From Herpetosiphonaceae bacterium (GTDB lineage Bacteria > Chloroflexota > Chloroflexia > Chloroflexales > Herpetosiphonaceae): a stretch of 35,186 nucleotides of DNA. Positions 3,248 through 31,148 of this stretch are shown one piece after another. A program made the translations under genes and the position numbers. How positions within the stretch are numbered: position 1 is the first letter of the stretch; every line of letters begins with the position of its first letter. The stretch lies in contig JABXJS010000196.1 of assembly GCA_013538855.1 (NCBI GenBank), positions 1 through 35,186 of the forward strand. The letters are read 5' to 3'. The notes below the pieces were generated by a model, which saw nothing but the letters and a program-made list of their open reading frames with translations, was not told the origin of the DNA and did no database searches.

Positions 3248-5749
3248 CTAGGTCTGAGGCGGCCCAGCGATCAGCGTGCTGAGCTGAGCGAGCATATCCT
3301 GAAGGTAGGTCAGCACATCGGTGGCCGCGCCAAACTGCCAGTGATCGAACAGAAACAGCGGATCAAGCTGCTCACGCAGGGCCTGGAGCAGCCCCATGCG
3401 CGCCTCGCGGTATGGCGTGGGCATCTGGATGCCGTGCAGGCTGACGATCTGGTCGGCGACACCGGCGACGACGGCGGCCTCGCCTAAGTCGTTGTGGCGC
3501 AGCAGCAGGTCGGCGAGGGTGGTCAGCGCCTCGGCGATACAGGCCCAGTCGTTGACGCGCAGGGCGGTCACGAGCGCCTCGTGCATCCATACGGCGGCCT
3601 GGGCCAGCTGGCCGCGCTTCACATGCACCTGGCCTAAGTTGTGCAGGGTGTTGGCGATGAACATGTGCGAGTCGAGCGAGCGCCACATATCGAGGCTCAG
3701 GCGCAGCCACTGCTCGGCGGATGTGAGCTGGTTTTGATACAGCGCCAGCTCGCCGAGGTTGTTGTAGGTGCTGGCCAGGCCGACCGTGTGCTGAATAAGC
3801 CGCCAGTACTTCAGGCTCTCCTGGTAGAACGCGACGGCCTCATCGAGGTGATTCTGGCGCGTGGCGACGATGCCCAGCGTATTCAGGGTGTTCGCGATCT
3901 GATACGGCTCATCGAGGTTGCGCCAGAAGGCCAGATTTTCACGCAGGAGGGATTCGACCTCGTCGTAGGAGCCTTGCTGTAGCCCCAGCAGGCTGAGATT
4001 GTAGCGCACGCTGGCGATGAAGCGCTCATCTTCAAGCTGCCACGCCAGCTGGAGCGCACGCTCATACTTGCTGCGGGCGCGCTCCAGCTGGCCCAGCGCA
4101 TAGAGCATCACGCCAGCCTCCTTGTAGAGGCGCATCAGCAGGCCCGGCTCGATGCGTGTCTGGCCGTCGAGAATCTGCTCCATAAACGCACGACCCTCGT
4201 GGTGATAGCCCTGAATGTACCAAAAGCGGCTCAGGGCTACCGCCAGCTCAGCGGCAGAGGTGAAGTGCTCTTGCTCAATCAGGAAGGTCAGCACCGTGCG
4301 CAGGTTGGCGTACTCGCGCTCTAGGCGCTGCTTCCAGTCCATCTGGGCCGGGCCGGTCAGCTCCTGCATGCCCTGCAGCGCCAGGCGCACAAAATAGTCG
4401 GCGTAGCGCAGCTTAAGCTCCAGCAGATGATCGGACTGGATGAGCATGCTCTGAGCGTACTGCCGCAGCGGTGTCAGCATGGCGAAGCGCCCATGAATAT
4501 CCTCCGAGGGCGACCACTGCATCAAATTTTTCTCCACCAAGCTCTGCAGCGTTGGCAGCACCGCCAGCGGCGAGACCATCTGCTCGGCCAAAATGATCGC
4601 CAGGCTCTCGGGGGTGCAGCCGCCGGCAAACACACTGGCGCTCAGAAACACCGTCTGCTGCTCGGGATTGAGCAGGCGAAAGCTCCACTCAAGGGCGCTC
4701 TCCATGCTCTGCTGGCGCTGCTGTGGCCCCAGCAGCGTCTGGCGCAGGCCCTTCAGGGTGTACTGAAGCTGGCTGTAGATCTGCGGCAGCGTCGTGTGGG
4801 CGGCCGAGGCGGCGGCCAGCTCCAGCGCCAGCGGCAGGCCCTCTAGCTGCTGGCAAATCTTGGCGATCATCGCGAGGTCGATTTTGGCGTGGGGGGAGCC
4901 GAGCAGCGGCTCTAGGCGCTGGACGAACAGGCTCACCGCCGGATTAGCGCTGAGGTCGGCGCTCAGATCGCTGGGGACAGGCAGCGGCGGCACCGAGTAC
5001 TCGTGCTCCAGCGAGAGGCGCAGCGGCTCGCGGCTGGTCGTCAGGCAGGTCAGGTGCGGCACGCGATAGAGCAGCTCGGCGATCTGCGGGGCGGCGGCCA
5101 TCACATGCTCGAAGTTATCCAGCACCAGCAGCAGCGCGTCGCGCTGAGCCAGGCCGTCGAGCACCGCCTGCAGTGGATCAGGGGCCGGGAAGGGCACCTG
5201 GAGCGCATAGCCGATCGTCTCCAGCACCAGCTGGTCGCTGGACAGCGCATCGAGCGGCACAAAAACCCACTCCTGGGCGCTGCGCGCCTGCACCTCGTGC
5301 AGCACCTGGAGGCTCAGGCGCGTTTTGCCAACGCCAGGCGGGCCGGTCAGCGTCACAAGCCGCACATCCGGCCGCAGCAGCAGCTCGGCCACGTGCTCGA
5401 CCTCGCGCTCACGGCCGACAAACGAGGTGAGCAGCTGCGGAAAGATCGTGGCCCGCGTGCGCGAGTCCAGCGCCAGCGCCGGGCCAGTCGGCAGCTTCGC
5501 CAGCGCGCGCGCCTGGTAGACAAGCTCTGTCTGCGCCTCGAGCGGCACATCAAACAGGGTAAAAAGCTCTTGCAGCAGCGCCAGGCTGGGGCGGCTCACA
5601 TCGGCCTCAAGCTGCTGCACCAGCGCCGCACTGATCTGCAGGCGCTGGGCTAGCTCGGCACCGCTCAGCCCTTGGCTGGTACGTTGCTGCTGAAGCCAGC
5701 GCCCAAAGCTCATACTCATTCCTGACGGAGATTGAAACGATTGTTGCAT
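3248..5749 (-). CDS. XRE-type HTH regulator with NB-ARC-like ATPase and TPR repeats
   Basis: This is a large signal-transduction ATPase of the kind common in Chloroflexota and actinobacteria. From the chosen start, an XRE helix-turn-helix covers about residues 15-70. An NB-ARC-like ATPase follows, with Walker A GPPGVGKTR (about 136-144), Walker B LLLVLDNFE (about 206-214), a TTSREPL sensor and a GLPLALELA motif. The C-terminal ~300 residues are TPR repeats (recurring LGxxxxxxGxxxxA patterns) ending near residue 780. Ligand binding to the TPRs probably gates ATP exchange and DNA binding. The frame is open from 5812, but the ATG at 5747-5749 has AGAGG five bases upstream, while the 5812 start has none. 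A later ATG at 5711-5713, just before the HTH, also has an AGGA site, so the start is uncertain. No target is evident. Confidence 0.85.
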   Translation of the reverse strand: MQQSFQSPSGMSMSFGRWLQQQRTSQGLSGAELAQRLQISAALVQQLEADVSRPSLALLQELFTLFDVPLEAQTELVYQARALAKLPTGPALALDSRTRATIFPQLLTSFVGREREVEHVAELLLRPDVRLVTLTGPPGVGKTRLSLQVLHEVQARSAQEWVFVPLDALSSDQLVLETIGYALQVPFPAPDPLQAVLDGLAQRDALLLVLDNFEHVMAAAPQIAELLYRVPHLTCLTTSREPLRLSLEHEYSVPPLPVPSDLSADLSANPAVSLFVQRLEPLLGSPHAKIDLAMIAKICQQLEGLPLALELAAASAAHTTLPQIYSQLQYTLKGLRQTLLGPQQRQQSMESALEWSFRLLNPEQQTVFLSASVFAGGCTPESLAIILAEQMVSPLAVLPTLQSLVEKNLMQWSPSEDIHGRFAMLTPLRQYAQSMLIQSDHLLELKLRYADYFVRLALQGMQELTGPAQMDWKQRLEREYANLRTVLTFLIEQEHFTSAAELAVALSRFWYIQGYHHEGRAFMEQILDGQTRIEPGLLMRLYKEAGVMLYALGQLERARSKYERALQLAWQLEDERFIASVRYNLSLLGLQQGSYDEVESLLRENLAFWRNLDEPYQIANTLNTLGIVATRQNHLDEAVAFYQESLKYWRLIQHTVGLASTYNNLGELALYQNQLTSAEQWLRLSLDMWRSLDSHMFIANTLHNLGQVHVKRGQLAQAAVWMHEALVTALRVNDWACIAEALTTLADLLLRHNDLGEAAVVAGVADQIVSLHGIQMPTPYREARMGLLQALREQLDPLFLFDHWQFGAATDVLTYLQDMLAQLSTLIAGPPQT

Positions 5750-5843
5750 AACGCCTCTGAAGCTGGAACGACCTGCGCTGCTGTCCGGCTGGTCTAGCAG
5801 GCATGCGGTCATGGTTCATGGGGCTGAAGATTCGCGTACTTTA

Positions 5844-5852
5844 ACCATAGCA
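5844..5852 (-). promoter_or_regulatory. Candidate extended -10 for the HTH-ATPase-TPR gene
   Basis: The minus strand reads TGCTATGGT here, close to the TGCTATAAT form seen before other genes in this window. It lies about 95 bases upstream of the chosen start. I see no convincing -35. Confidence 0.3.
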
Positions 5853-5864
5853 CAGGTCGGCGCA

Positions 5865-6313
5865 CGTAGGTCGGCGGCTGCATGCCCGACGGCACGCACG
5901 CTGCACGGGCCACGCGCCGCCCGCTGATGACGAACGCAGCTGGTTGCGCATACCTGCGCTGCAGGCCAACCACCACGGCAGAAGCGCCGCTCAGCTGTTG
6001 TTTCGACCATGCCCCGCCGCCAGACCCGCGCTCGGCGCTCGTAGGCCGACGGCTGCATGCCCAACGGCGCGCACGCTGCACGTTCCACGCGCCGCCCGCT
6101 GATGACGAACGCAGCTGGTTGCGCCCGCCTGCGCTGCTGGCCAACCACCAAAGCAGCAACGCCGCTCAGCTGTTGTTTCGACCATGCCCCGCCGCCAGAC
6201 CCGCGCTCGGCGCTCGTAGGCCGGCGGCTGCATGCCCGACGGCACGCACGCTGCACGGTCCACGCGCCGCCCGCTGATGGCGAACGCAGCTGGTTGCGCA
6301 TACCTGCGCTGCA
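5865..6313. repeat. Tandem repeat, 175-bp period, about 2.6 copies
   Basis: Copies run 5865-6039, 6040-6214 and 6215 to about 6313, each beginning CGTAGG and passing through near-identical blocks such as CGCCGCCCGCTGATG and CAGCTGTTGTTTCGACCATG. Both periods are exactly 175 bases. Since 175 is not a multiple of three, a reading frame would not be kept from copy to copy. The overlapping open frames on both strands are therefore shadows of GC-rich DNA. The array fills most of the ~595-base space between two minus-strand genes, and no gene is visible in it. Copies differ by scattered substitutions, so the duplication is not brand new. Confidence 0.9.
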
Positions 6314-6344
6314 TGTGCTCAAGACGTTGCCACAGCCAGCGGGC

Positions 6345-7706
6345 TTAGCGTCCACATGGCCCAGGCGCAGCAGGCGGGCAGGGCCAGCGGCGCTGATACC
6401 AGGGGCGATCAAGCAGCCGCTCGTCGATAACCTGGACATCAGGGCGCACGCCGAGGACGCTCTGCACATACCACAGCGGGAAGGTGATCTGATCATCCTG
6501 GCTGACAATCTGCCCAAACGGCGGGGCGGCGCTCAGGCGCTGACGCGCCAGCTCACGCTCGGCGGTCGCCGTCCCGAGCGAGCGCTGGCTGAGCTGGAGG
6601 GCGGGAGCCAGCACCAGCAGCAGCCCAACCACAGCGCCGATCCTCCACCTAAAGCCAGCGCCAAGCCAGCCCAGCGCCACCTCGAACCCAAGGCCCGCCC
6701 ACAGTGCCCCAAGCAGATGCAGCGGCAGCAGATAGACTGTGCTGTCGCTGCCGCCGTAGCTCACCGACCAGCCGACCACGCTGGCGGCGATCAGCGCGCT
6801 CAGGCCGCGCCAGCCCGGCAACGCCGCGCCCCACACCAGCCCGATCAGCGCCAGCGGAGCGCCGAGCAGCCCAAGGCTGCGCACCAGATCGACCAGCACA
6901 AACACCAGCCGCTGCGCCCGCTGCGCCCACGGCACCACGCCGACGAGATAGCGGTACTCGGCGGCGCTGATGTGCGCCAGCATGCCGGAGAGGCTTGTCC
7001 AGTCGCCCCAGCTGGCCCCCGGCCGCGCCTGGCCACGCCAGGGCAGCACAAGCACGACGCTTAGCCCCAGCAGCAGACCAGCGCCAAACAGTGCGACGGC
7101 GGCGCGCCAGCGCCAGGGCCGTGAGCACCAGGCCAGCCAAGCAGCTCCAGCAAGCCAGGCTAGCAGCGGAAGCTGCACCCAGATGCCCAGGCCCAGCACT
7201 AGGCCAAGCGCCAGCAGCGTGCGCCGCCGCCGGTAGCGCTGCCAGCGCGCAGTCAGCCACAGCAGCAGCGCCAGCATCAGCAGCGCCAGCGCGTACACCT
7301 CGACAATCAGCGCCTGCTCCCACACACGGCGGTCGAGCGCGAGTACAGCAGCGGCAAGCAGCCCAGACAGCTGCGGAAAGCGCAGCGACTGCTGACTAAG
7401 CAGCGGGGTCAGAAGCACAAGTATCGCTGCTGCGCTCGCCAGGGCCAGGGTGCTGAGCCAGCCGAGTCGCCAGGCAGGCTCGCCAGCAGGCAGCAGCAGC
7501 GCCACGCGCCCAAACAGCAGGTAGGTGGGGTAGCCTGGCGGATGCGGCACCGCGCCAGCCCAGACCGCCGTCGCCAGCTCGCCGCCGTCAGCGCCGCCGT
7601 AGGCGGTGGTCACCGTAGGGGCGATCTGTGGGCCATAGAAGCCGCAGATCGCCAGGGCTAGCAGCGCAGCGAGCCAGCCCTGGCGCAGCGGCGGACGCTC
7701 AGCCAA
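6345..7706 (-). CDS. DUF2723-family membrane glycosyltransferase-like protein
   Basis: This is a polytopic membrane protein (453 residues, about ten hydrophobic segments). Its N-terminal loop carries the hallmark of DUF2723/GT-C proteins: a GGADGGELATA stretch followed by HPPGYPTY (residues ~37-61), where the acidic residues would lie in the periplasmic active-site loop. The C-terminus carries QDDQITFPLWYVQ, then RPDVQVID and a WYQRRWP end, also typical of the family. It probably transfers a sugar from a lipid carrier to protein or glycan outside the cell; the substrate is unknown. The start is TTG at 7704-7706, inside the end of the upstream MBL gene (8-base overlap). No ATG or GTG is available nearby, so the two are translationally coupled. 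It is shorter than many DUF2723 proteins, which have extra C-terminal domains. Confidence 0.75.
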   Translation of the reverse strand: MAERPPLRQGWLAALLALAICGFYGPQIAPTVTTAYGGADGGELATAVWAGAVPHPPGYPTYLLFGRVALLLPAGEPAWRLGWLSTLALASAAAILVLLTPLLSQQSLRFPQLSGLLAAAVLALDRRVWEQALIVEVYALALLMLALLLWLTARWQRYRRRRTLLALGLVLGLGIWVQLPLLAWLAGAAWLAWCSRPWRWRAAVALFGAGLLLGLSVVLVLPWRGQARPGASWGDWTSLSGMLAHISAAEYRYLVGVVPWAQRAQRLVFVLVDLVRSLGLLGAPLALIGLVWGAALPGWRGLSALIAASVVGWSVSYGGSDSTVYLLPLHLLGALWAGLGFEVALGWLGAGFRWRIGAVVGLLLVLAPALQLSQRSLGTATAERELARQRLSAAPPFGQIVSQDDQITFPLWYVQSVLGVRPDVQVIDERLLDRPWYQRRWPCPPAAPGPCGR

Positions 7707-8610
7707 CGTAGCCGTGCTTCTCCAGGTAGCGGCGCATGCCGTGGATGCTCATCACCGTCGTCCCATGCAGAACGCGCTTAACACCAGCGTGGCGTGCATC
7801 CGCCGGAGCCATCACGCGCGCCAGAATATGCTCGACGGGCATCTCGCCGGTCTCCAGGCCAGAGCGCACATCGACCTCCAGCTTGCGCACCAGCTCCTCC
7901 ATCTGGTCAAGCACGCTGCGCGGATCGCCGGCGGCGTGGCCGAAGTGCGAGGGTAGCAGCGTCTGGATGGGCAGCTGGCGCAGGCGGTCGAAGGTCGCAT
8001 ACTGCTCGATCAGATCGAAGGTTGGCGGCGGCGTGACGGCACAGGCGACCTGATGTGTTGACATCACGATGCCGATAGCGTCACCGGCCCACAGCGTCTG
8101 CGACAGCGCATCCCAGAACGCCAGGTGGTCCGGCGAGTGGCCAGGCGTGGCGATCGCCTCGATCACAATATTCTGGCCCAAATCGAGACGCAGGTCTTCG
8201 GCGGGCTTGATGCGCTCGGCGGGGATGGGCACGATGGTGCCGTAGAGCGGCCACATCTCACCAACAGCGCGCTCGACGCTGCGCAAGAGGCGAGTCGGAT
8301 CGATCAGGTGCTCGGCAGTCATAGAGTTGATATAGACCGCCGCGTTGGGCAGGGCCTGGACCAGCGGGCCAGCACCGCCGACGTGATCCATATGAATATG
8401 CGTCAACAGAATGTGCTGGACCTCCTCGGGCGCGATGCCCAGCTGTTCCAGGCCAGCCAAGGTGGCCGGAGCCGTTGGCGACGTGCCGGTCTCGATGAGC
8501 GCGATCTGATCGCCACGCACCACATAGGTCGCGCCGAATCCATCGGTCTCCAGCAAGCCATTGTCGATCCAGGCGATATGCTCATTGATCTGAGCCACAG
8601 GTACAGTCAT
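7699..8610 (-). CDS. MBL-fold metallo-hydrolase
   Basis: This 303-residue metallo-beta-lactamase-fold hydrolase has a complete metal site. HIHMDH (H71, H73, D75, H76) is followed by the GHSPDH histidine, the aspartate of LWAGDAIG and the histidines of LLPSHFGH. The general shape resembles glyoxalase II-like and lactonase-like members, but the substrate cannot be assigned. The open frame extends to 8664, but ATG at 8608-8610 has a near-perfect AAGGAGG site about eight bases upstream, and the preceding 18 residues look non-protein-like. The C-terminal ~70 residues are helical, as in MBL proteins with a winged-helix tail. It heads a two-gene unit with the DUF2723 protein. Confidence 0.88.
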   Translation of the reverse strand: MTVPVAQINEHIAWIDNGLLETDGFGATYVVRGDQIALIETGTSPTAPATLAGLEQLGIAPEEVQHILLTHIHMDHVGGAGPLVQALPNAAVYINSMTAEHLIDPTRLLRSVERAVGEMWPLYGTIVPIPAERIKPAEDLRLDLGQNIVIEAIATPGHSPDHLAFWDALSQTLWAGDAIGIVMSTHQVACAVTPPPTFDLIEQYATFDRLRQLPIQTLLPSHFGHAAGDPRSVLDQMEELVRKLEVDVRSGLETGEMPVEHILARVMAPADARHAGVKRVLHGTTVMSIHGMRRYLEKHGYVG

Positions 8611-10112: not shown

Positions 10113-11642
10113 TTATGTTGATTTGCGTCCAATGACGCGGAAGGCGCGCACTGTCTGGGCTTTACCTTTGAGCTGCAGCATGCCGACCTCTTGGAAGACA
10201 TAGGCATCGCCAAGCTGCTCAACGGTGGCCTCGCTGGTGTACACGCTGTTTGGCTCGGCCTTGCCCTCAAGGCGTGAGGCCGTGTTGACGGTATCGCCGT
10301 GGACGGTGTACTCAAGCCGCTCACGGGTGCCAACGAGGCCCGAGATGACGCGGCCAGAGTTCACGCCGATACGAATACGAAAATGTTTTGCCGGATCGAC
10401 CTTGGCCATCAGCCGCTCGTGCTGCTTGAGCATGCCCAGCGCCGTATCGATGGCGCGGCGCGCGTGGTCCTCATAGAAGACGGGCGCACCGAAGAGGGCC
10501 ATGATCCCATCGCCGATGAACTTATCGAGGGTGCCGCCGTGCTCGAAGATCACATCGGTCATCACGCTAAGGTACTCATTGAGCAGATTCTGCAGCTCAA
10601 GCGGTGGCAGGGTCTCGGTCATCGAGGTAAAGCCCTGGATATCGGAGAAGAGCACCGTGGCCTCCTGCTCGACCGGCTTCATGGGCAGGTCGCCGGTGTC
10701 GGCGATCTGCTGGGCCACTGTGCGGGCGACATCGGGGGAGAGGAAGCGTGAAAACTGCTGGCGCAGCGTCTCCTCCTTGCGCACCTGCTCGGTGAGGCGG
10801 GCGCGCTCGATGCCGAGGGCGGCCTGATAGGCGACCGCCGTGAGCAGCTCGCGATCGCGGATCGAGAAGCGCTCGAAGCCCGGGCTATCCAGGTGGATCA
10901 GGCCGAGCACGCCGAGACGCCCGACGAGCGGCACACACAGCACCGAGCGAATATTTTGGCTGATGATGCTCTCGTGTGAGCCGAAGTCGGCGCGGGCATC
11001 GGAGGTGAGCAGCGCCACGCCCTCGCGCAGCACCTGGCGCGCAATCGTTGAGCTGATCAAGAACGGCGTATCGCTTGGCGGCGCGCTCACGACCATGGGC
11101 ACCAGCTCGGCCCCGTCCTGGCGCGTCATCAGCAGAAAGCCGCGCTCGGCGGGCACGAGGCGCAGCACCTCCTCCATGATCGCATCGAGCAGCTCGCGCA
11201 GATCCAAGATCATATTGAGCCGTGAGCTAACCTGGTAGAAGTTCTGCAAAATATCGTTGGCGTCGAGGTTCAGCTCAGGCAAGCGGCCGGAGGAGACAGA
11301 GCGGCTTTGCGTGTGAAAGGGCACGCTTGGATCATCGCTAATGATGACGCTGGCGGCGGCGCGCTCGTCGAAGTCGAACGCAAACGGGCCAATGGCGATT
11401 GAGTCATTGTCGTGGAGCGAGGCTTCCTTGACGCGCAGGCCGTTGACAAACGTGCCATTGGAGCTATTCAGGTCGTGGATAATCACATCACGGCCTTTTA
11501 GCTCCACAAAGGCATGATTCCGCGACACATGTGGATGATTGAGGATGACATCATTGTTGCGTGAGCGACCCACTCGCAGGCCGTTCGGCCCAATGGGATA
11601 GCTGGCAACCTGACCTTCGATCGTTGATATCAAGCGCGCCAT
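10113..11642 (-). CDS. FHA-GAF-class III adenylate cyclase
   Basis: This 509-residue cytoplasmic signalling enzyme is predicted to make cAMP from ATP. The FHA domain (1-95) has GRS (25-27), SRNH (40-43) and NGTFVNG (62-68), the phosphothreonine-binding residues. A GAF sensor domain covers about 130-285, a short linker helix follows, and the class III cyclase domain spans about 325-500. Metal-binding aspartates are in LFSDIQGFT (D334) and FIGDG (D378). The base-recognition lysine of LDKFIGD (K374), the aspartate of HGDTVN (D450) and the transition-state arginine of ASRLE (R457) favour ATP over GTP. The ATG at 11640-11642 has a modest AGGT site. Downstream, ricT is probably co-transcribed. The FHA domain suggests control by a Ser/Thr kinase encoded elsewhere. 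Confidence 0.92.
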   Translation of the reverse strand: MARLISTIEGQVASYPIGPNGLRVGRSRNNDVILNHPHVSRNHAFVELKGRDVIIHDLNSSNGTFVNGLRVKEASLHDNDSIAIGPFAFDFDERAAASVIISDDPSVPFHTQSRSVSSGRLPELNLDANDILQNFYQVSSRLNMILDLRELLDAIMEEVLRLVPAERGFLLMTRQDGAELVPMVVSAPPSDTPFLISSTIARQVLREGVALLTSDARADFGSHESIISQNIRSVLCVPLVGRLGVLGLIHLDSPGFERFSIRDRELLTAVAYQAALGIERARLTEQVRKEETLRQQFSRFLSPDVARTVAQQIADTGDLPMKPVEQEATVLFSDIQGFTSMTETLPPLELQNLLNEYLSVMTDVIFEHGGTLDKFIGDGIMALFGAPVFYEDHARRAIDTALGMLKQHERLMAKVDPAKHFRIRIGVNSGRVISGLVGTRERLEYTVHGDTVNTASRLEGKAEPNSVYTSEATVEQLGDAYVFQEVGMLQLKGKAQTVRAFRVIGRKST

Positions 11643-25496: not shown

Positions 25497-27176
25497 TCAG
25501 CCCTGGTTGCGCCGCATCAGCAGCTCCAGTGCATACTGGATGCCGCTTTTCAGATCAGAGCGTGTATCGACGCTGCTGAGGTCAACATCGAGCATCAGCA
25601 GCGACTGGGCAATCTCCGGCCGCACGCCCACCAGCACCGAGTGCGTGCCTAGCAGCTGTGCGGCGCGCATCATCGTCAGCAGCGCCTCGGCCACCGCGCT
25701 ATCGATCAGTGGGACGCCGGTCACATCGATCAGCGCGATGCGCGCCCGATGCTCGTTGATGCCATCCATCAGGCTGCGGGCGAGCATGCCCGCCCGTGCG
25801 GCGTCGATCTCGCCGATCAGCGGCATGACGATAATGGCATCGTGCACCGCAACGACGGGCATCGACAGGCTGCGCACCGTCTCCTTGAGCTGCTCGCGCG
25901 CTGTCAGCGAATCCTGCAGCTCATCAAGGATGCGGTTGCGCTCGGTCAGGCTATGCTCTAGCTCGGCAGTGCGCTCGGCCACGCGCTGCTCCAGCTGCGC
26001 CTGATTCAGCCGCAGCTGCTCGGTCATGGTGTTGAACACACGCGAGAGCACGCCCAGCTCGTTGTGCGCGTGCACCGTGACCAGCTGGTCTAGCTCGCCC
26101 TCGGCGACGCGCCGCGCCCCGTCGGTCAGCGCGGCAATGGGCTTCGACAGATAGCTTGAGATCAGCAGCGCAAGCACGATCACCAGCGCCCCGATGCCAG
26201 CGGCAAAGCCCAGGCTATAGTTGGCGGCGCGCCGCGAGCCAGCGAAGGCCTCGGTGGCCTCGACCTCGGCAATCAGCCCGGCCTGTAGCTCGGGCACCCA
26301 GCGGTACACACCGAGCACCTGCTCCGGCGGCGACTGGTAGTTCATGTACACGCCCGAGCCGGCCTCGCCGCGCAGCGCCGCATCAATGCCCTGGCTGTGG
26401 TACGACTGATTGAGCGAGTAGCCCTCGAAGCGGCTTGGTGTCAGGAGATAGCTGCTCTCTAGGCTGACCAGATAGGTCTCGCCGCTTGCGCCCAGGCCCG
26501 AGCGCTCCAGCATCAGGTTTGCCAGCACCGTAAGATCGAGACGCCCGGCCAGCACGGCCACCACCTGATTAGAAGCGTCACGGATCGGCCGCGTCACCAC
26601 CATCGTCAGCTCGCCTGATCCAACGGCATAGTAGGGCGGTTGAATGAAACTGTCGGTGAGGCTCGCATCAAAGTAGGGCTGCGTGCGCACCACCTTGCCG
26701 ACCTGCACCGGCTCGGAGGAGGCGATGACCCGCCCTTCGGGAGTAAACAAAAATAGCTCGGTGAAGTTGAGGTTTGCGCCAGGGATGATGTCGTGCGCGC
26801 TGGCGACGCTGGTCAGCGCCGTGCTCACCAGCTGCTCAAGCTGCGGATCATCGGGGGTTTGTGTAAGATTGGCCAGCGATGCCTCAAACGGCCCGGTCGC
26901 CAGCACCTCGAGCACCAGCTGGCTGTCGCCAAGCCAGTGCTCGATCTGATTCGCCTTCAGCTGCGAGACCGACTGCAGCTGGTTGTACACATGATTGTAC
27001 GACTGGCGGCTGGTCAGCACGAGTGTCAGCAGCTCGACGCCGACCAGTGGCAGCAGGGCCACCAGCAGCAGCGTTAAGATCATACCCCAGCGAATCTGCT
27101 GCCAAATGGGCAGCGGCCCCAGCGGTTCACTCTCTGGGGCTGGATCGACAGCGGCGCTTGATTGGTTATTGGCCAT
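25497..27176 (-). CDS. Cache-HAMP-STAS membrane sensor (RsbR-like output)
   Basis: This 559-residue membrane sensor has TM1 at about 31-54, then an extracellular Cache-type double sensor domain (about 55-312). TM2 follows at 319-342, then a HAMP domain (343-395), a coiled coil (395-435) and a C-terminal STAS domain (437-550). The STAS domain resembles RsbR/RsbS-type antisigma antagonists: LIDVTGVPLIDSAVAEALL carries Thr486 at the phosphorylated position of stressosome proteins. There is no kinase or methyl-accepting region, so output is probably by partner switching with proteins encoded elsewhere. ATG at 27174-27176 overlaps the end of the substrate-binding lipoprotein gene by 11 bases, which implies coupled translation and a functional pair. 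Confidence 0.85.
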   Translation of the reverse strand: MANNQSSAAVDPAPESEPLGPLPIWQQIRWGMILTLLLVALLPLVGVELLTLVLTSRQSYNHVYNQLQSVSQLKANQIEHWLGDSQLVLEVLATGPFEASLANLTQTPDDPQLEQLVSTALTSVASAHDIIPGANLNFTELFLFTPEGRVIASSEPVQVGKVVRTQPYFDASLTDSFIQPPYYAVGSGELTMVVTRPIRDASNQVVAVLAGRLDLTVLANLMLERSGLGASGETYLVSLESSYLLTPSRFEGYSLNQSYHSQGIDAALRGEAGSGVYMNYQSPPEQVLGVYRWVPELQAGLIAEVEATEAFAGSRRAANYSLGFAAGIGALVIVLALLISSYLSKPIAALTDGARRVAEGELDQLVTVHAHNELGVLSRVFNTMTEQLRLNQAQLEQRVAERTAELEHSLTERNRILDELQDSLTAREQLKETVRSLSMPVVAVHDAIIVMPLIGEIDAARAGMLARSLMDGINEHRARIALIDVTGVPLIDSAVAEALLTMMRAAQLLGTHSVLVGVRPEIAQSLLMLDVDLSSVDTRSDLKSGIQYALELLMRRNQG

Positions 27177-28224
27177 ACACAGAGTTCAGAAACGTTAGCG
27201 TATACGCCTTGGCAACGTCTAACGGCTTATCGATCAACTTCTGGCTGAGCAGCACTTGCTCGGTGTTGTCCCAGATCTTAGCGTTCATCATGCCCGGCTG
27301 GCTGCCGGCTGGGCGAATCAGCGGCACCGATGCCAGCATACCCTCATCTTGGAGCGCTTGGATCGGCGGAGCCATGGTGGCACCGTAGGTTTCCACAACA
27401 TGCTTCGCTGCATCTTCAGGGTGATCGACGGCCCAGGTCAAGCCTTTGGTCAGCGCATTGATAAACGCCTGCACTGTCTCGGGATGCTCGGCAATCATCG
27501 ACTCGGTGGTAAAGATGACGTTGCTGTAGATATCGATGCTGTAGATATCGATGCCGTAGTCGCTCAGCAGCAGCACATTGACCGATGCATCGCGGGCGCG
27601 CGCCTGGGTTGCTTCGTGGGTGATAAATGCGTGCAGCACGTCAATTTTACCACTAAATAGATCATCAACGGACGACTGTGGCAGCACCGGCACCTCGGTG
27701 ATCGTCGCCGGATCAACCTGCTCGGACTCCAGCAGCGCGCGATAGCTGATATAGACCGTCGTGTCTGGCGGCGCGATGCCGATCGTCTTGCCTGCCAGAT
27801 CGGCCGGCTTGAGCACGTTGCTATCCTTCAGCGAGACCAGCGCGACTGGGCTGCGCTGATAGATCGCCGCGATGGCCACCAGCGGGCTGCCGGCCGCCCG
27901 CGCGCGCAGTAGCACATCCGCCCCGGCGATGCCAAACTCAGCGTTGCCACTTTGCACCTCAGTGACCGGATCGATATACGCGCCATCGGCGGTGATGCCA
28001 CCCTCTTTAATCGTGAGATCAAGCTTGTTCTGGCTAGCATAGCCCTGATTGAGCGCCTCGTATACACCAGCAAACTCGATGCTATGAAACCACGAGAGCT
28101 GAATCGAGGCGCTGGCCGGTGGCAGCTCCGGGGTAGCCGTAGGAGCAGCTGCGCCGCAGCCTGCCAGCACGAGACTAGCAAGCAGCCCAACAGTAAACAG
28201 TCGTGACCATACGCGATGAACCAT
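27166..28224 (-). CDS. NMT1/THI5-type substrate-binding lipoprotein
   Basis: This 352-residue extracytoplasmic binding protein belongs to the NMT1/ThiY/SsuA-like fold. The N-terminus has a lipoprotein signal peptide ending LVLAGC (lipobox cysteine near residue 23). A proline/alanine linker follows, then IQLSWFHSIEFAGVYEALNQG, the family's opening strand and helix, and the hinge motifs GNAEFGIAGADVLL and LAGKTIGI. Family members bind pyrimidine precursors, sulfonates or nitrate-like ligands; the ligand here is unknown. The frame is open from 28302, but ATG at 28222-28224 has AGAGGAG upstream and gives a proper signal peptide. No ABC permease or ATPase gene is nearby. It is followed, with overlap, by the Cache-HAMP-STAS sensor. 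Confidence 0.9.
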   Translation of the reverse strand: MVHRVWSRLFTVGLLASLVLAGCGAAAPTATPELPPASASIQLSWFHSIEFAGVYEALNQGYASQNKLDLTIKEGGITADGAYIDPVTEVQSGNAEFGIAGADVLLRARAAGSPLVAIAAIYQRSPVALVSLKDSNVLKPADLAGKTIGIAPPDTTVYISYRALLESEQVDPATITEVPVLPQSSVDDLFSGKIDVLHAFITHEATQARARDASVNVLLLSDYGIDIYSIDIYSNVIFTTESMIAEHPETVQAFINALTKGLTWAVDHPEDAAKHVVETYGATMAPPIQALQDEGMLASVPLIRPAGSQPGMMNAKIWDNTEQVLLSQKLIDKPLDVAKAYTLTFLNSVYGQ

Positions 28225-28269
28225 GTGCGCTCCTCTTTCAACATAACGAATTCTGGCCAAGCCTAACAG

Positions 28270-28875: not shown

Positions 28876-28903
28876 CGCTCTTCGGTATTAGGAAACAACA
28901 TGA

Positions 28904-29003
28904 GCTCATTGTGACGGGCGGAGGGACTGGCCCAACGAAGCCCGGCAACCCCACTCCGGTGGAAGGTGCCAAATCCTGCAGGTGTATCACCTGAAAAATG
29001 AGC
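28904..29003 (+). promoter_or_regulatory. SAM-I riboswitch aptamer
   Basis: The sequence has the conserved SAM-I (S-box) core: GGAGGGACTGGCCC, then GAAGCCCGGCAACC, then GGTGCCAAATCCTGCAG. P1 is closed by GCTCATT (28904-28910) and AATGAGC (28997-29003). SAM binding should stabilise P1 and let the terminator at 29015-29038 form. It controls mtnA and probably the whole run to metK, consistent with feedback by SAM. Confidence 0.95.
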
Positions 29004-29014
29004 CGTGACTCGGG

Positions 29015-29038
29015 CCTCTCGTTATGAGAGGTTTTTTT
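29015..29038 (+). terminator. Riboswitch expression-platform terminator
   Basis: CCTCTC (29015-29020) and GAGAGG (29026-29031) form a short stem followed by seven T residues (29032-29038), the standard off-switch of an S-box leader. The 3' arm also contains AGAGG, seven bases before an ATG at 29039. Confidence 0.88.
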
Positions 29039-29068: not shown

Positions 29069-30138
29069 TGATAGACACAGCCTTACGTACAGTTTGGTGG
29101 GAAGATCAAGCCTGCCACTTAATTGATCAGACTCAGCTACCAACAGCATTCACCGTTGTGCGCTGTGAGCAGGTCGAAGCGGTCGCCCACGCCATTCGCT
29201 CAATGCAGGTCCGGGGTGCTCCGGCCATCGGGGTAACTGCCGCCTATGGCATGGCGCTCGCCGCACAGCAGAGCGACGCCAACACCAGCGTCGCCCTGCT
29301 AGCGGATCTGCGCCAAGCGCAAGCGCTGCTCAACGCAACGCGGCCCACCGCCATCAATCTGGCCTGGGCCACCGACCGCATGCTCACGCTCGCGCAGCAG
29401 CATGCCGCCAGCACACCTGCGGCCCTCCGCGATCTGCTGCTCGCAGAGGCCGAGCGCATCCGCGATGAAGACGAGGCGATGTGCCGTGCGATCGGCCGCC
29501 ATGGGGCCGCGCTGCTGCGCGAGCGCCACAACGTGCTCACCCACTGCAACGCTGGTGGGCTAGCGACGGCGGCCTATGGCACAGCGCTTGCGCCCATCCG
29601 CACCGCCTTCGCTGCTGGCACACCACTGCATGTCTATGTCGATGAGACACGCCCGTTCCTGCAAGGGGCGCGCCTGACCGCCTGGGAGCTACAGCAGGCC
29701 GGCATTCCGCTCACGCTGATCACCGACTCGATGGCTGGCCATTTTATGCAGCGCGGCCAGATCGACTGCATTATTGTTGGGGCTGACCGCATCGCCGCCA
29801 ATGGCGATGTGGCCAACAAGATCGGCACCTACACGCTGGCTGTGCTAGCCCAAGCGCACGCCATCCCGCTGTATGTGGCCGCGCCAACCTCAACAATCGA
29901 TCTCAACACCAGCGACGGCAGCGCCATCCCCATCGAGGAGCGCGCCGCCGCCGAGGTGACGCAGCTCGCTGGTCAGCAGCTGGCTCCAGCGGGCGTTATG
30001 GCGGCCCATCCGGCCTTTGATGTCACACCGCACCGCTTGATCAGCGCCATCATCACCGAGCAGGGCCTGGTGCAGCCGCCGTTCGCCAGCGGGCTGGCCC
30101 AGGCGGTGGCTCAGGCCGAGCAGGCACGCCAGCGATGA
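29068..30138 (+). CDS. mtnA: S-methyl-5-thioribose-1-phosphate isomerase
   Basis: MtnA converts methylthioribose-1-phosphate to methylthioribulose-1-phosphate in methionine salvage. The 356-residue product has the family signatures VRGAPAIGVTAAYG, THCNAGGLATAAYGTAL with the active-site cysteine, DETRPFLQGARLTAWEL, and GADRIAANGDVANKIGTYTLA with the catalytic aspartate. The SAM-I riboswitch directly upstream supports the role. The start is ATG at 29068 (a GTG one codon earlier is in frame); neither has a binding site, but the TGATG overlap with a micro-ORF suggests coupling. Its TGA overlaps the ATG of the next gene (ATGA). A downstream salvage kinase or dioxygenase is not seen here. Confidence 0.95.
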   Translation: MIDTALRTVWWEDQACHLIDQTQLPTAFTVVRCEQVEAVAHAIRSMQVRGAPAIGVTAAYGMALAAQQSDANTSVALLADLRQAQALLNATRPTAINLAWATDRMLTLAQQHAASTPAALRDLLLAEAERIRDEDEAMCRAIGRHGAALLRERHNVLTHCNAGGLATAAYGTALAPIRTAFAAGTPLHVYVDETRPFLQGARLTAWELQQAGIPLTLITDSMAGHFMQRGQIDCIIVGADRIAANGDVANKIGTYTLAVLAQAHAIPLYVAAPTSTIDLNTSDGSAIPIEERAAAEVTQLAGQQLAPAGVMAAHPAFDVTPHRLISAIITEQGLVQPPFASGLAQAVAQAEQARQR

Positions 30139-31148
30139 CCCTTCCGTTTGAGGCGAACTGCTATCCCATGGCCCCCTTTGACCTGCCCTATGCGCAGATC
30201 CAGGGCGCATGGGCCGCCCAGCGCCAAACAAACACGGTGGTCAAAACATGGCCCTTGCTGCCGCCAGAGCCGATCTGGCACCTAGCAGCCAGCGGCTTTC
30301 CTGGCCTCGCCGACGATGGCCTGACGGTTGTGCAGGCCGACTTTGAGCGCGAGCTTGAGCGCCACCAGCTGGCTTTTTTACAGTATGATTTGAGCTATAC
30401 TGCTGTGCCAAAGCTGCGGCAGGCCATCACCAAGCTGCACGAGCAGATCAGCGCTGCCACCCGTATGCAGGCGCTCATCATCGGCGTGTACGGCCCGGTT
30501 AGCCTCGGCCTCACGCTGGTCAACGAGCACCAAACGCCGCTGTGGCACGATCCGTTCATGCGCGAGGTGCTTGTCCAGCACCTGCACCTGCGCACCGCCT
30601 GGCTCGAACAGGCCTTTGGCGCGGTCGTCCCGGCCACCAGCATCTGTCTGCTAGAGCCATTCTGGGATAGCCTGCACAGCCCGTTTGTGACCACCGACGA
30701 GGCGGTCGGCATCCAGGCCCTGGCCGAGATCGGCCAGACGCTCCAGGCCACCTTGGGCCTGATGGCCACCGGCAGCGTCGACTGGCCAACAGTGCTCGCG
30801 ACCAATGTGCGCTTGATTATCTGTCAGCCCGAGCAGCGCAGTGCGCTCTTGGACTGTGGCACCTGTTTAAACGATTATTTTGAACGTGGCGGCATCGTCG
30901 CTTGGGCTATGCTTCCCACCACCGCCGCCACACTCGATCAGCTCGCCCTTGAGCCTCTTATGGACTCATGGGACACGCTGCTCAGGCAAGCGCTCGACAA
31001 CGATGTGTTGAACAGTCGCATGCTGAGCGGTTCGTTGCTCACCACCAATCCGGGCCTGCGCACGCAGACCACTGCAACCGCCGACCGTGTGCTCGGCGCG
31101 CTGGCAACGCTCTCTGAGCACATCCGGACGCGGTATAAGCTTTCGTAA
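30135..31148 (+). CDS. MetE/UROD-like protein lacking the metal-site residues
   Basis: The layout fits the uncharacterised UROD/MetE-like TIM-barrel family: GVYGPVSLGLTL (~117-127), LEPFWDSLHSPF (~173-184), a strand ending in SVDWPTVL, RGGIVAWAMLPT (~251-262) and SLLTTNPGL (~300-308). In the family as I remember it the metal-binding strand reads HCCxNTDW and a later loop has SCGL. Here these are MATGSVDW (210-217) and TTNPGL, so His and Cys ligands are absent. CGTC at 241-244 might replace them but lies elsewhere. At 337 residues it lacks the MetE N-terminal barrel. The start overlaps the mtnA stop (ATGA). Its operon suggests a role in methyl transfer or sensing, but canonical methionine synthase activity is unlikely. 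Confidence 0.72.
   Translation: MTLPFEANCYPMAPFDLPYAQIQGAWAAQRQTNTVVKTWPLLPPEPIWHLAASGFPGLADDGLTVVQADFERELERHQLAFLQYDLSYTAVPKLRQAITKLHEQISAATRMQALIIGVYGPVSLGLTLVNEHQTPLWHDPFMREVLVQHLHLRTAWLEQAFGAVVPATSICLLEPFWDSLHSPFVTTDEAVGIQALAEIGQTLQATLGLMATGSVDWPTVLATNVRLIICQPEQRSALLDCGTCLNDYFERGGIVAWAMLPTTAATLDQLALEPLMDSWDTLLRQALDNDVLNSRMLSGSLLTTNPGLRTQTTATADRVLGALATLSEHIRTRYKLS

Follow-up and report, generated by a model that had tools for sequence, protein, structure and literature searches.

The window, that is, the whole analysed stretch of 35,186 nucleotides from contig JABXJS010000196.1 of a Herpetosiphonaceae bacterium (assembly GCA_013538855.1), contains two adjacent, overlapping genes on the minus strand. 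The first (28224-27166) encodes an NMT1/THI5-type solute-binding lipoprotein (SBP), and the second (27176-25497) encodes a sensor composed of a transmembrane (TM) helix, a dCache domain, a second TM helix, a HAMP domain and a STAS domain. An earlier sequence-only reading had claimed an NMT1 lipoprotein and a Cache-HAMP-STAS sensor sharing 11 bases, and both open reading frames (ORFs) were found where it had placed them, the overlap being exactly 27166-27176. No Shine-Dalgarno sequence was visible by inspection before the sensor ATG, which suggests that translation of the sensor is coupled to that of the SBP gene. The features of the pair are as follows.

28230-28234, minus strand: Shine-Dalgarno sequence AGGAG of the SBP gene (sequence inspection; 5-nt spacer)
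27166-28224, minus strand: coding sequence of the NMT1/THI5-like SBP, 352 amino acids (aa), lipobox Cys23 (PF09084, 4e-46)
28156-28224, minus strand: lipoprotein signal peptide with lipobox, residues 1-23 (LVLAGC, Cys23)
27166-27176, minus strand: 11-bp overlap of the SBP 3' end and the sensor start, the sensor ATG lying within the last SBP codons
25497-27176, minus strand: coding sequence of the TM-dCache-TM-HAMP-coiled coil-STAS sensor, 559 aa
27015-27086, minus strand: TM helix 1, about residues 31-54 (hydropathy; AlphaFold (AF2) helix 28-93)
26229-26996, minus strand: extracytoplasmic dCache domain, residues 61-316, Pfam match at 61-238 (dCache_1, PF02743, 4.5e-20; DALI-scale Z about 19)
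26145-26216, minus strand: TM helix 2, about residues 321-344 (hydropathy)
26010-26165, minus strand: HAMP domain, residues 338-389 (PF00672, 1.6e-13)
25866-26009, minus strand: signalling coiled coil, residues about 390-437 (one unbroken AF2 helix over 373-437, of low confidence at 427-438)
25500-25859, minus strand: RsbR-type STAS domain, residues 440-559 (PF01740, 3.3e-14)
25698-25700, minus strand: Ser493 in VTGVPLIDS, aligned to Thr175 of Listeria RsbR (alignment; site role from PMC6614362)
25602-25604, minus strand: Ser525 in RPEIAQS, aligned to Thr209 of Listeria RsbR (alignment; site role from PMC6614362)

The lipobox Cys of the SBP was conserved in every member of the two alignments, of 7 and of 23 sequences. 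The AF2 model of this protein (predicted local distance difference test, pLDDT = 92.5) had the NMT1/THI5 SBP fold and was closest to the solved structures 4nmy (a thiamin-bound SBP) and 3ix1 (ThiY, which binds N-formyl-4-amino-5-aminomethyl-2-methylpyrimidine, FAMP). The model of the sensor was fair (pLDDT = 80.9), and its ectodomain matched DctB, PscC and other dCache structures; LuxQ was not among the structural matches listed for it, which is no evidence either way. Another structure, 5ere (an extracellular ligand binding receptor), aligned to the sensor dCache at its positions 353-593 and may be a natural SBP-dCache fusion, but a sequence search with a Peripla_BP_6 SBP missed it, and it was not used as evidence. 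HisKA and HATPase domains were absent from the sensor according to Pfam, its output being STAS. This domain matched RsbR of the Listeria stressosome (9e-27, aligned over its length), was closer to RsbR than to the SpoIIAA/RsbV models, and gave a structural match to 7b0u (Z = 19.0), the C-terminus being closest to stressosome RsbR/RsbS. Ser/Thr residues occupied both phospho-acceptor positions in 5/5 NMT1-paired STAS receptors, Ser493 and Ser525 in the window sensor among them, and the RsbR-like output claimed in the sequence-only reading is thus well founded.

The genome to which the window belongs (6.3 Mb, 100% complete, a draft in 285 contigs), whose nearest named relatives are Herpetosiphonaceae metagenome-assembled genomes, contained only two NMT1 genes, and each immediately preceded a dCache-HAMP sensor gene, the two sensors belonging to one family. 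In the second pair (G000:C215; G, C and L numbers denote genomes, contigs and loci), the input part of the sensor was 46% identical to that of the window sensor, while the output was HisKA-HATPase-REC-REC, with a further receiver gene. The top sensors found with the input-domain profile in 158 genomes of the class were again paired (G003:C360, G003:C25, G001:C4, G024:C1203, G065:C47 and G021:C224), as were weaker ones at G060:C954 and C464. Among 84,980 species genomes, 39 related sensor loci were detected, nearly all in Chloroflexota, with one Spirochaetales record. An NMT1 lipoprotein gene lay directly 5' of the sensor, on the same strand, in 15 of the 19 best loci (profile E ≤ about 1e-124), the two genes being -17 to 244 nt apart (longest-ORF starts); in the remaining four, an extra sensor gene intervened and the lipoprotein was encoded two genes upstream. 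The latter was ABC_sub_bind by Pfam in L177; in L170, L172 and L179 it is probably Peripla_BP_4, the family that Pfam gave for the lipoprotein of L166, a related locus. The pairing, for which the sequence-only reading had proposed a survey of NMT1 lipoproteins with Cache-HAMP-STAS sensors, thus recurs. As a separate observation, Anaerolineae clusters (L166, L170, L172, L179 and L182) contained a Peripla_BP_4 lipoprotein, a 4HB-HAMP-GAF protein, in some cases an NMT1 lipoprotein, and a giant dCache protein with a frame extending past 2,370 aa.

The outputs attached to this input varied. STAS outputs were present in the NMT1-paired sensors of five loci, namely, the window, G003:C360, G024:C1203, G065:C47 and G021, the last being very probably a STAS member with its pair split over contigs C224 and C114. 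Histidine kinase outputs were found at C215, G003:C25 (with a reading frame that stops early, close to the end of the contig), G001:C4, G060:C954 and a number of Anaerolineae loci, and GAF outputs at L168, L169, L185 and L187. The distance matrices of the SBPs and of the sensor input parts were correlated (r = 0.74), with 0 of 5000 label permutations reaching as high a value, and in the two genomes with both paralogous pairs, C145/C360 and C215/C25 sorted alike in the SBP and sensor trees. Given its recurrence and the co-variation of the two phylogenies, the pairing exceeds chance. The STAS members did not form one clade in either tree, and outputs have thus probably changed more than once. 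Other SBP families were encoded upstream of more distant sensors, including SBP_bac_1 (L186, L193), Bmp (L188, L070), Peripla_BP_6 (L189) and SBP_bac_5 (L197, with a GGDEF output). In the genome of the window itself, a Peripla_BP_6 lipoprotein was encoded directly upstream of a dCache-HAMP-PAS-SpoIIE phosphatase, that is, a PP2C output (C143; L245, 3515-7200, minus strand). In addition, NMT1 domains were fused to PAS-GGDEF in single proteins (L071, 8152-10383, minus strand; L147, 844-3012, minus strand), in which the NMT1 family is the apparent signal input within one chain, making these proteins apparent SBP-driven diguanylate cyclases. Consequently, the pair first viewed as one special case is real and recurrent, but the conserved unit is the SBP-dCache input module, to which STAS is attached as one interchangeable output among several.

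The usual role of NMT1-type SBPs is in importers of the SsuABC/ThiXYZ type. The SBP could therefore belong to an ABC importer encoded elsewhere, the sensor being merely co-transcribed and reporting on or controlling nutrient use, and distant NMT1 genes did lie beside such permeases at L080, L081, L148-L151, L157 and L159-L161. Nevertheless, this explanation is decidedly unlikely. None of the ten genes tested that flank the pair most closely encodes an ABC permease or ATPase, in agreement with the original claim; these comprised LON-substrate domain, ArgJ-like, methyltransferase, UDG, TyrRS-like, mtnA-like, PfkB, AdoHcyase and MetK genes, one of the ten having no Pfam match at 1e-10. A profile of nine SsuC/ThiX-type permeases from Chloroflexota NMT1 transporter loci revealed no permease of this type in the draft genome of the window, G003 or G001, whereas it gave 1e-108, 1e-96 and 1e-96 in three other genomes used as positive controls. 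The best match in the genome of the window (8e-22) belonged to a complete OpuC system, which includes an OpuAC SBP, and the weak matches fell in OpuC, Pot and Pst systems, each with its own SBPs. No orphan importer of the SsuC/ThiX type can thus claim the SBP, and the orphan transporter that the sequence-only reading had named as its possible undoing was rejected for this type, as far as the draft assembly allows. Moreover, the pair stays together while outputs and neighbourhoods vary.

The search for RsbT-like kinase and phosphatase genes elsewhere in the genome was also productive. An RsbS gene (5e-34 to solved RsbS) adjoined an RsbT-like HATPase kinase gene at G000:C80, a second RsbT-like protein adjoined an RsbX-like PP2C at C168, and about 45 RsbR-like STAS matches were counted. 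HAMP-containing STAS receptors numbered 12 in this genome according to a HAMP-STAS profile, and 6/12 adjoined a same-strand SBP gene: NMT1 (the window), Bmp (C22, C221), SBP_bac_1 (C193) and SBP_bac_6 (C149, C81). The two SBP_bac_6 loci were alike (L268, 3689-6454, for C149; L270, 4048-6621, for C81), the gene for the membrane STAS receptor preceding, in each, that for a Tat-type SBP_bac_6 lipoprotein. A seventh receptor gene (C116; L266, 3335-5741) followed a gene for a branched-chain amino acid permease at a distance of 10 nt. In eight relatives, 5/34 HAMP-STAS receptors adjoined an SBP gene (Peripla_BP_4 in three cases, Peripla_BP_6 in two). In one further case (L082), a frame-broken dCache/HAMP-STAS gene was accompanied by a convergent NMT1 gene; here (5377-8445), the NMT1 lipoprotein gene faces two overlapping ORFs, one with dCache and the other with HAMP-STAS, which are apparently one frameshifted sensor. 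SBP adjacency was found for 6/12 HAMP-STAS ORFs vs. 10/182 other ORFs in the genome of the window (Fisher 8e-5), and for 11/46 vs. 13/404 when relatives were included (4e-6), a contrast that is approximate and indicative, the SBP seeds coming partly from the same loci and the comparison ORFs from non-random fetched stretches. There may be, with chances that we judge to be even, a modular receptor class in Chloroflexota in which interchangeable lipoproteins (NMT1, Bmp/PnrA, Peripla_BP_4, Peripla_BP_6, SBP_bac_1, SBP_bac_6) each drive a membrane RsbR-type STAS receptor, feeding specific extracellular ligands into partner-switching or stressosome-like hubs.

For the window, the interpretation that we favour, with moderate confidence, is that the two genes form one SBP-dependent receptor that is LuxPQ-like outside and has an RsbR-type STAS output into partner switching. 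The lipoprotein, anchored outside the membrane, would bind a small molecule and, depending on its ligand state, would dock on the sensor dCache, as LuxP does on LuxQ. Thiamin or a pyrimidine precursor of thiamin is what its nearest solved relatives bind. Docking would be relayed through TM helix 2, HAMP and the coiled coil to the C-terminal STAS domain, which would join the RsbS/RsbT partner-switching pool of the cell (stressosome-like) and would change either RsbT binding or phosphorylation at Ser493/Ser525. The ligand-gated, membrane-anchored partner-switch pathway of the sequence-only reading is thereby retained in part: the SBP-sensor pairing has strong genomic evidence, the STAS domain is RsbR-like, and RsbS, RsbT-like and RsbX-like genes are present, while the SBP-dCache contact, its ligand dependence, RsbT phosphorylation and the downstream effect are what we infer.

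Several observations weigh against this interpretation, in addition to the approximate nature of the adjacency contrast. Shared descent contributes to the mirror-tree signal, and in six Herpetosiphon-like genomes the SBPs of the same clade were mostly without a same-operon sensor. The RsbT-like calls were made from Pfam and synteny, phmmer having given no solved RsbT-like match, and the window receptor is encoded apart from any rsbRST(X) operon, its neighbours being the TyrRS-like gene and an S-adenosylmethionine (SAM)-cycle cluster. Furthermore, the sensor domains of AgtS and AruS did not bind the SBPs encoded beside them (PMC11113362), and this adjacency without binding also speaks for a different explanation, namely, that a small ligand is sensed by the dCache domain itself, while the lipoprotein encoded next to it has a function of its own. 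Many dCache domains do bind ligands directly, and the structural matches obtained here were ligand-bound chemoreceptor and kinase domains. However, an SBP was encoded upstream of nearly all close sensor relatives, with different SBP families beside the more distant ones. The RxWY portion of the dCache amino-acid motif corresponds to RTQPYF in the window sensor (inspection, no formal test). We regard direct sensing by the dCache domain as rather unlikely.

It is also conceivable, though quite unlikely, that the SBP and the dCache domain form a receptor whose STAS domain acts on another partner, such as an RsbW-type anti-sigma factor or a PP2C protein. Other partners exist, the genome encoding several HATPase_c_2 proteins and containing 17 SpoIIE matches, and the two Bmp-paired STAS receptors, unlike the NMT1-paired ones, did not have Ser/Thr at both phosphosites. 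On the other hand, the STAS domain of the window is nearer to RsbR than to the SpoIIAA/RsbV models, and neither of the RsbR phospho-acceptor positions has been lost in the NMT1-paired members.

A functional tie between the pair and the divergent SAM-cycle cluster was considered and rejected, the neighbourhood not being kept with the pair in relatives; for example, a SAICAR-synthetase-like gene stands beside the related pair G003:C360. The cluster itself (an mtnA-like gene, an unassigned gene at 30135-31148, and PfkB kinase, AdoHcyase and MetK genes) is preceded by a SAM-I riboswitch (86.9 bits; 28903-29004, plus strand), after which a terminator-like hairpin was observed at 29012-29034. Elsewhere in the window (10113-11642, minus strand), an FHA-GAF-adenylate cyclase-like protein was recognized solely by reading its translated sequence.

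Chemoreceptors, histidine kinases, cyclic di-GMP (c-di-GMP) enzymes and Ser/Thr kinases are all known to be activated by SBPs (PMC9602780). Docking of an SBP on a dCache domain is an established mechanism, exemplified among double-PDC receptors by LuxPQ and HptSA (PMC8534201), and 10/11 known SBP-kinase couples are gene neighbours (PMC11113362). RsbR is described as having cytosolic sensory turrets, with Prli42 providing the membrane tether in Listeria (PMC6614362); stressosome signals have been defined for few RsbR proteins, namely, blue light (YtvA) and oxygen (globin types) (PMC9237108, PMC4976288). No description of an SBP-driven STAS receptor was found in the open literature, subscription papers and preprints being outside the search, and the sequence-only reading was likewise aware of no described system with this pairing; a combined description of an NMT1 SBP with a histidine kinase and thiamine was likewise not found in the open literature. 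If the modular class is real, SBP-dependent activation would gain a fifth output type, and partner switching would join the outputs known to be SBP-driven. Stressosome input is a long-standing question, and a purifiable ligand-binding protein joined to an RsbR-type STAS domain would offer a direct route to natural ligands and would make it possible to test the path by which an external signal arrives at the STAS core, the paralogous pairs with the same input but a histidine kinase output serving as a built-in control. Recurrence with different capture proteins and outputs points to plug-and-play reporting of outside molecules to stress-type switches.

Compared with the SBPs of ThiY/THI5-type ABC importers (3ix1, 4nmy), the window SBP has the same fold and family (NMT1, PF09084), but it lacks a nearby permease or ATPase and an SsuC/ThiX-type permease detectable in its genome, and it has SWFHS where its importer relatives have DWxPN. 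With SiaA/RsbU-type membrane PP2C receptors, the pair has in common a membrane input to a partner-switching pathway, the dCache-HAMP-PAS-SpoIIE protein with its Peripla_BP_6 lipoprotein being the counterpart in the same genome; the output is a phosphatase in these receptors and STAS in the window sensor, and, to our knowledge, SBP partners are absent from the description of SiaA. In relation to RsbR and the stressosomes of B. subtilis and Listeria, as well as minimal rsbRSTX modules, the C-terminal STAS domain is closest to RsbR and both phospho-acceptor positions are kept, with RsbS and RsbT/RsbX-like genes present in the genome, whereas the window sensor is an integral membrane protein with dCache and HAMP domains (RsbR having a cytosolic globin-like turret) and is encoded outside any rsbRST operon, with a gene for an extracellular SBP partner. 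LuxP-LuxQ (the Vibrio autoinducer-2 receptor) and HptA-HptS share with the pair an extracytoplasmic binding protein and a double PDC/dCache ectodomain between two TM helices; in both, the ligand is carried by the binding protein and not by the PDC, which by analogy may also hold for the window pair. LuxQ and HptS are histidine kinases, an output found in the paralogue G000:C215 and replaced by RsbR-type STAS in the window sensor, whose SBP belongs to the NMT1/THI5 family and whose SBP-dCache binding is predicted here. Thus, the window sensor is outside the LuxQ kinases and matches RsbR only partially by definition; its components are known, while their combination and its recurrence across SBP families appear, as far as checked, to be new.

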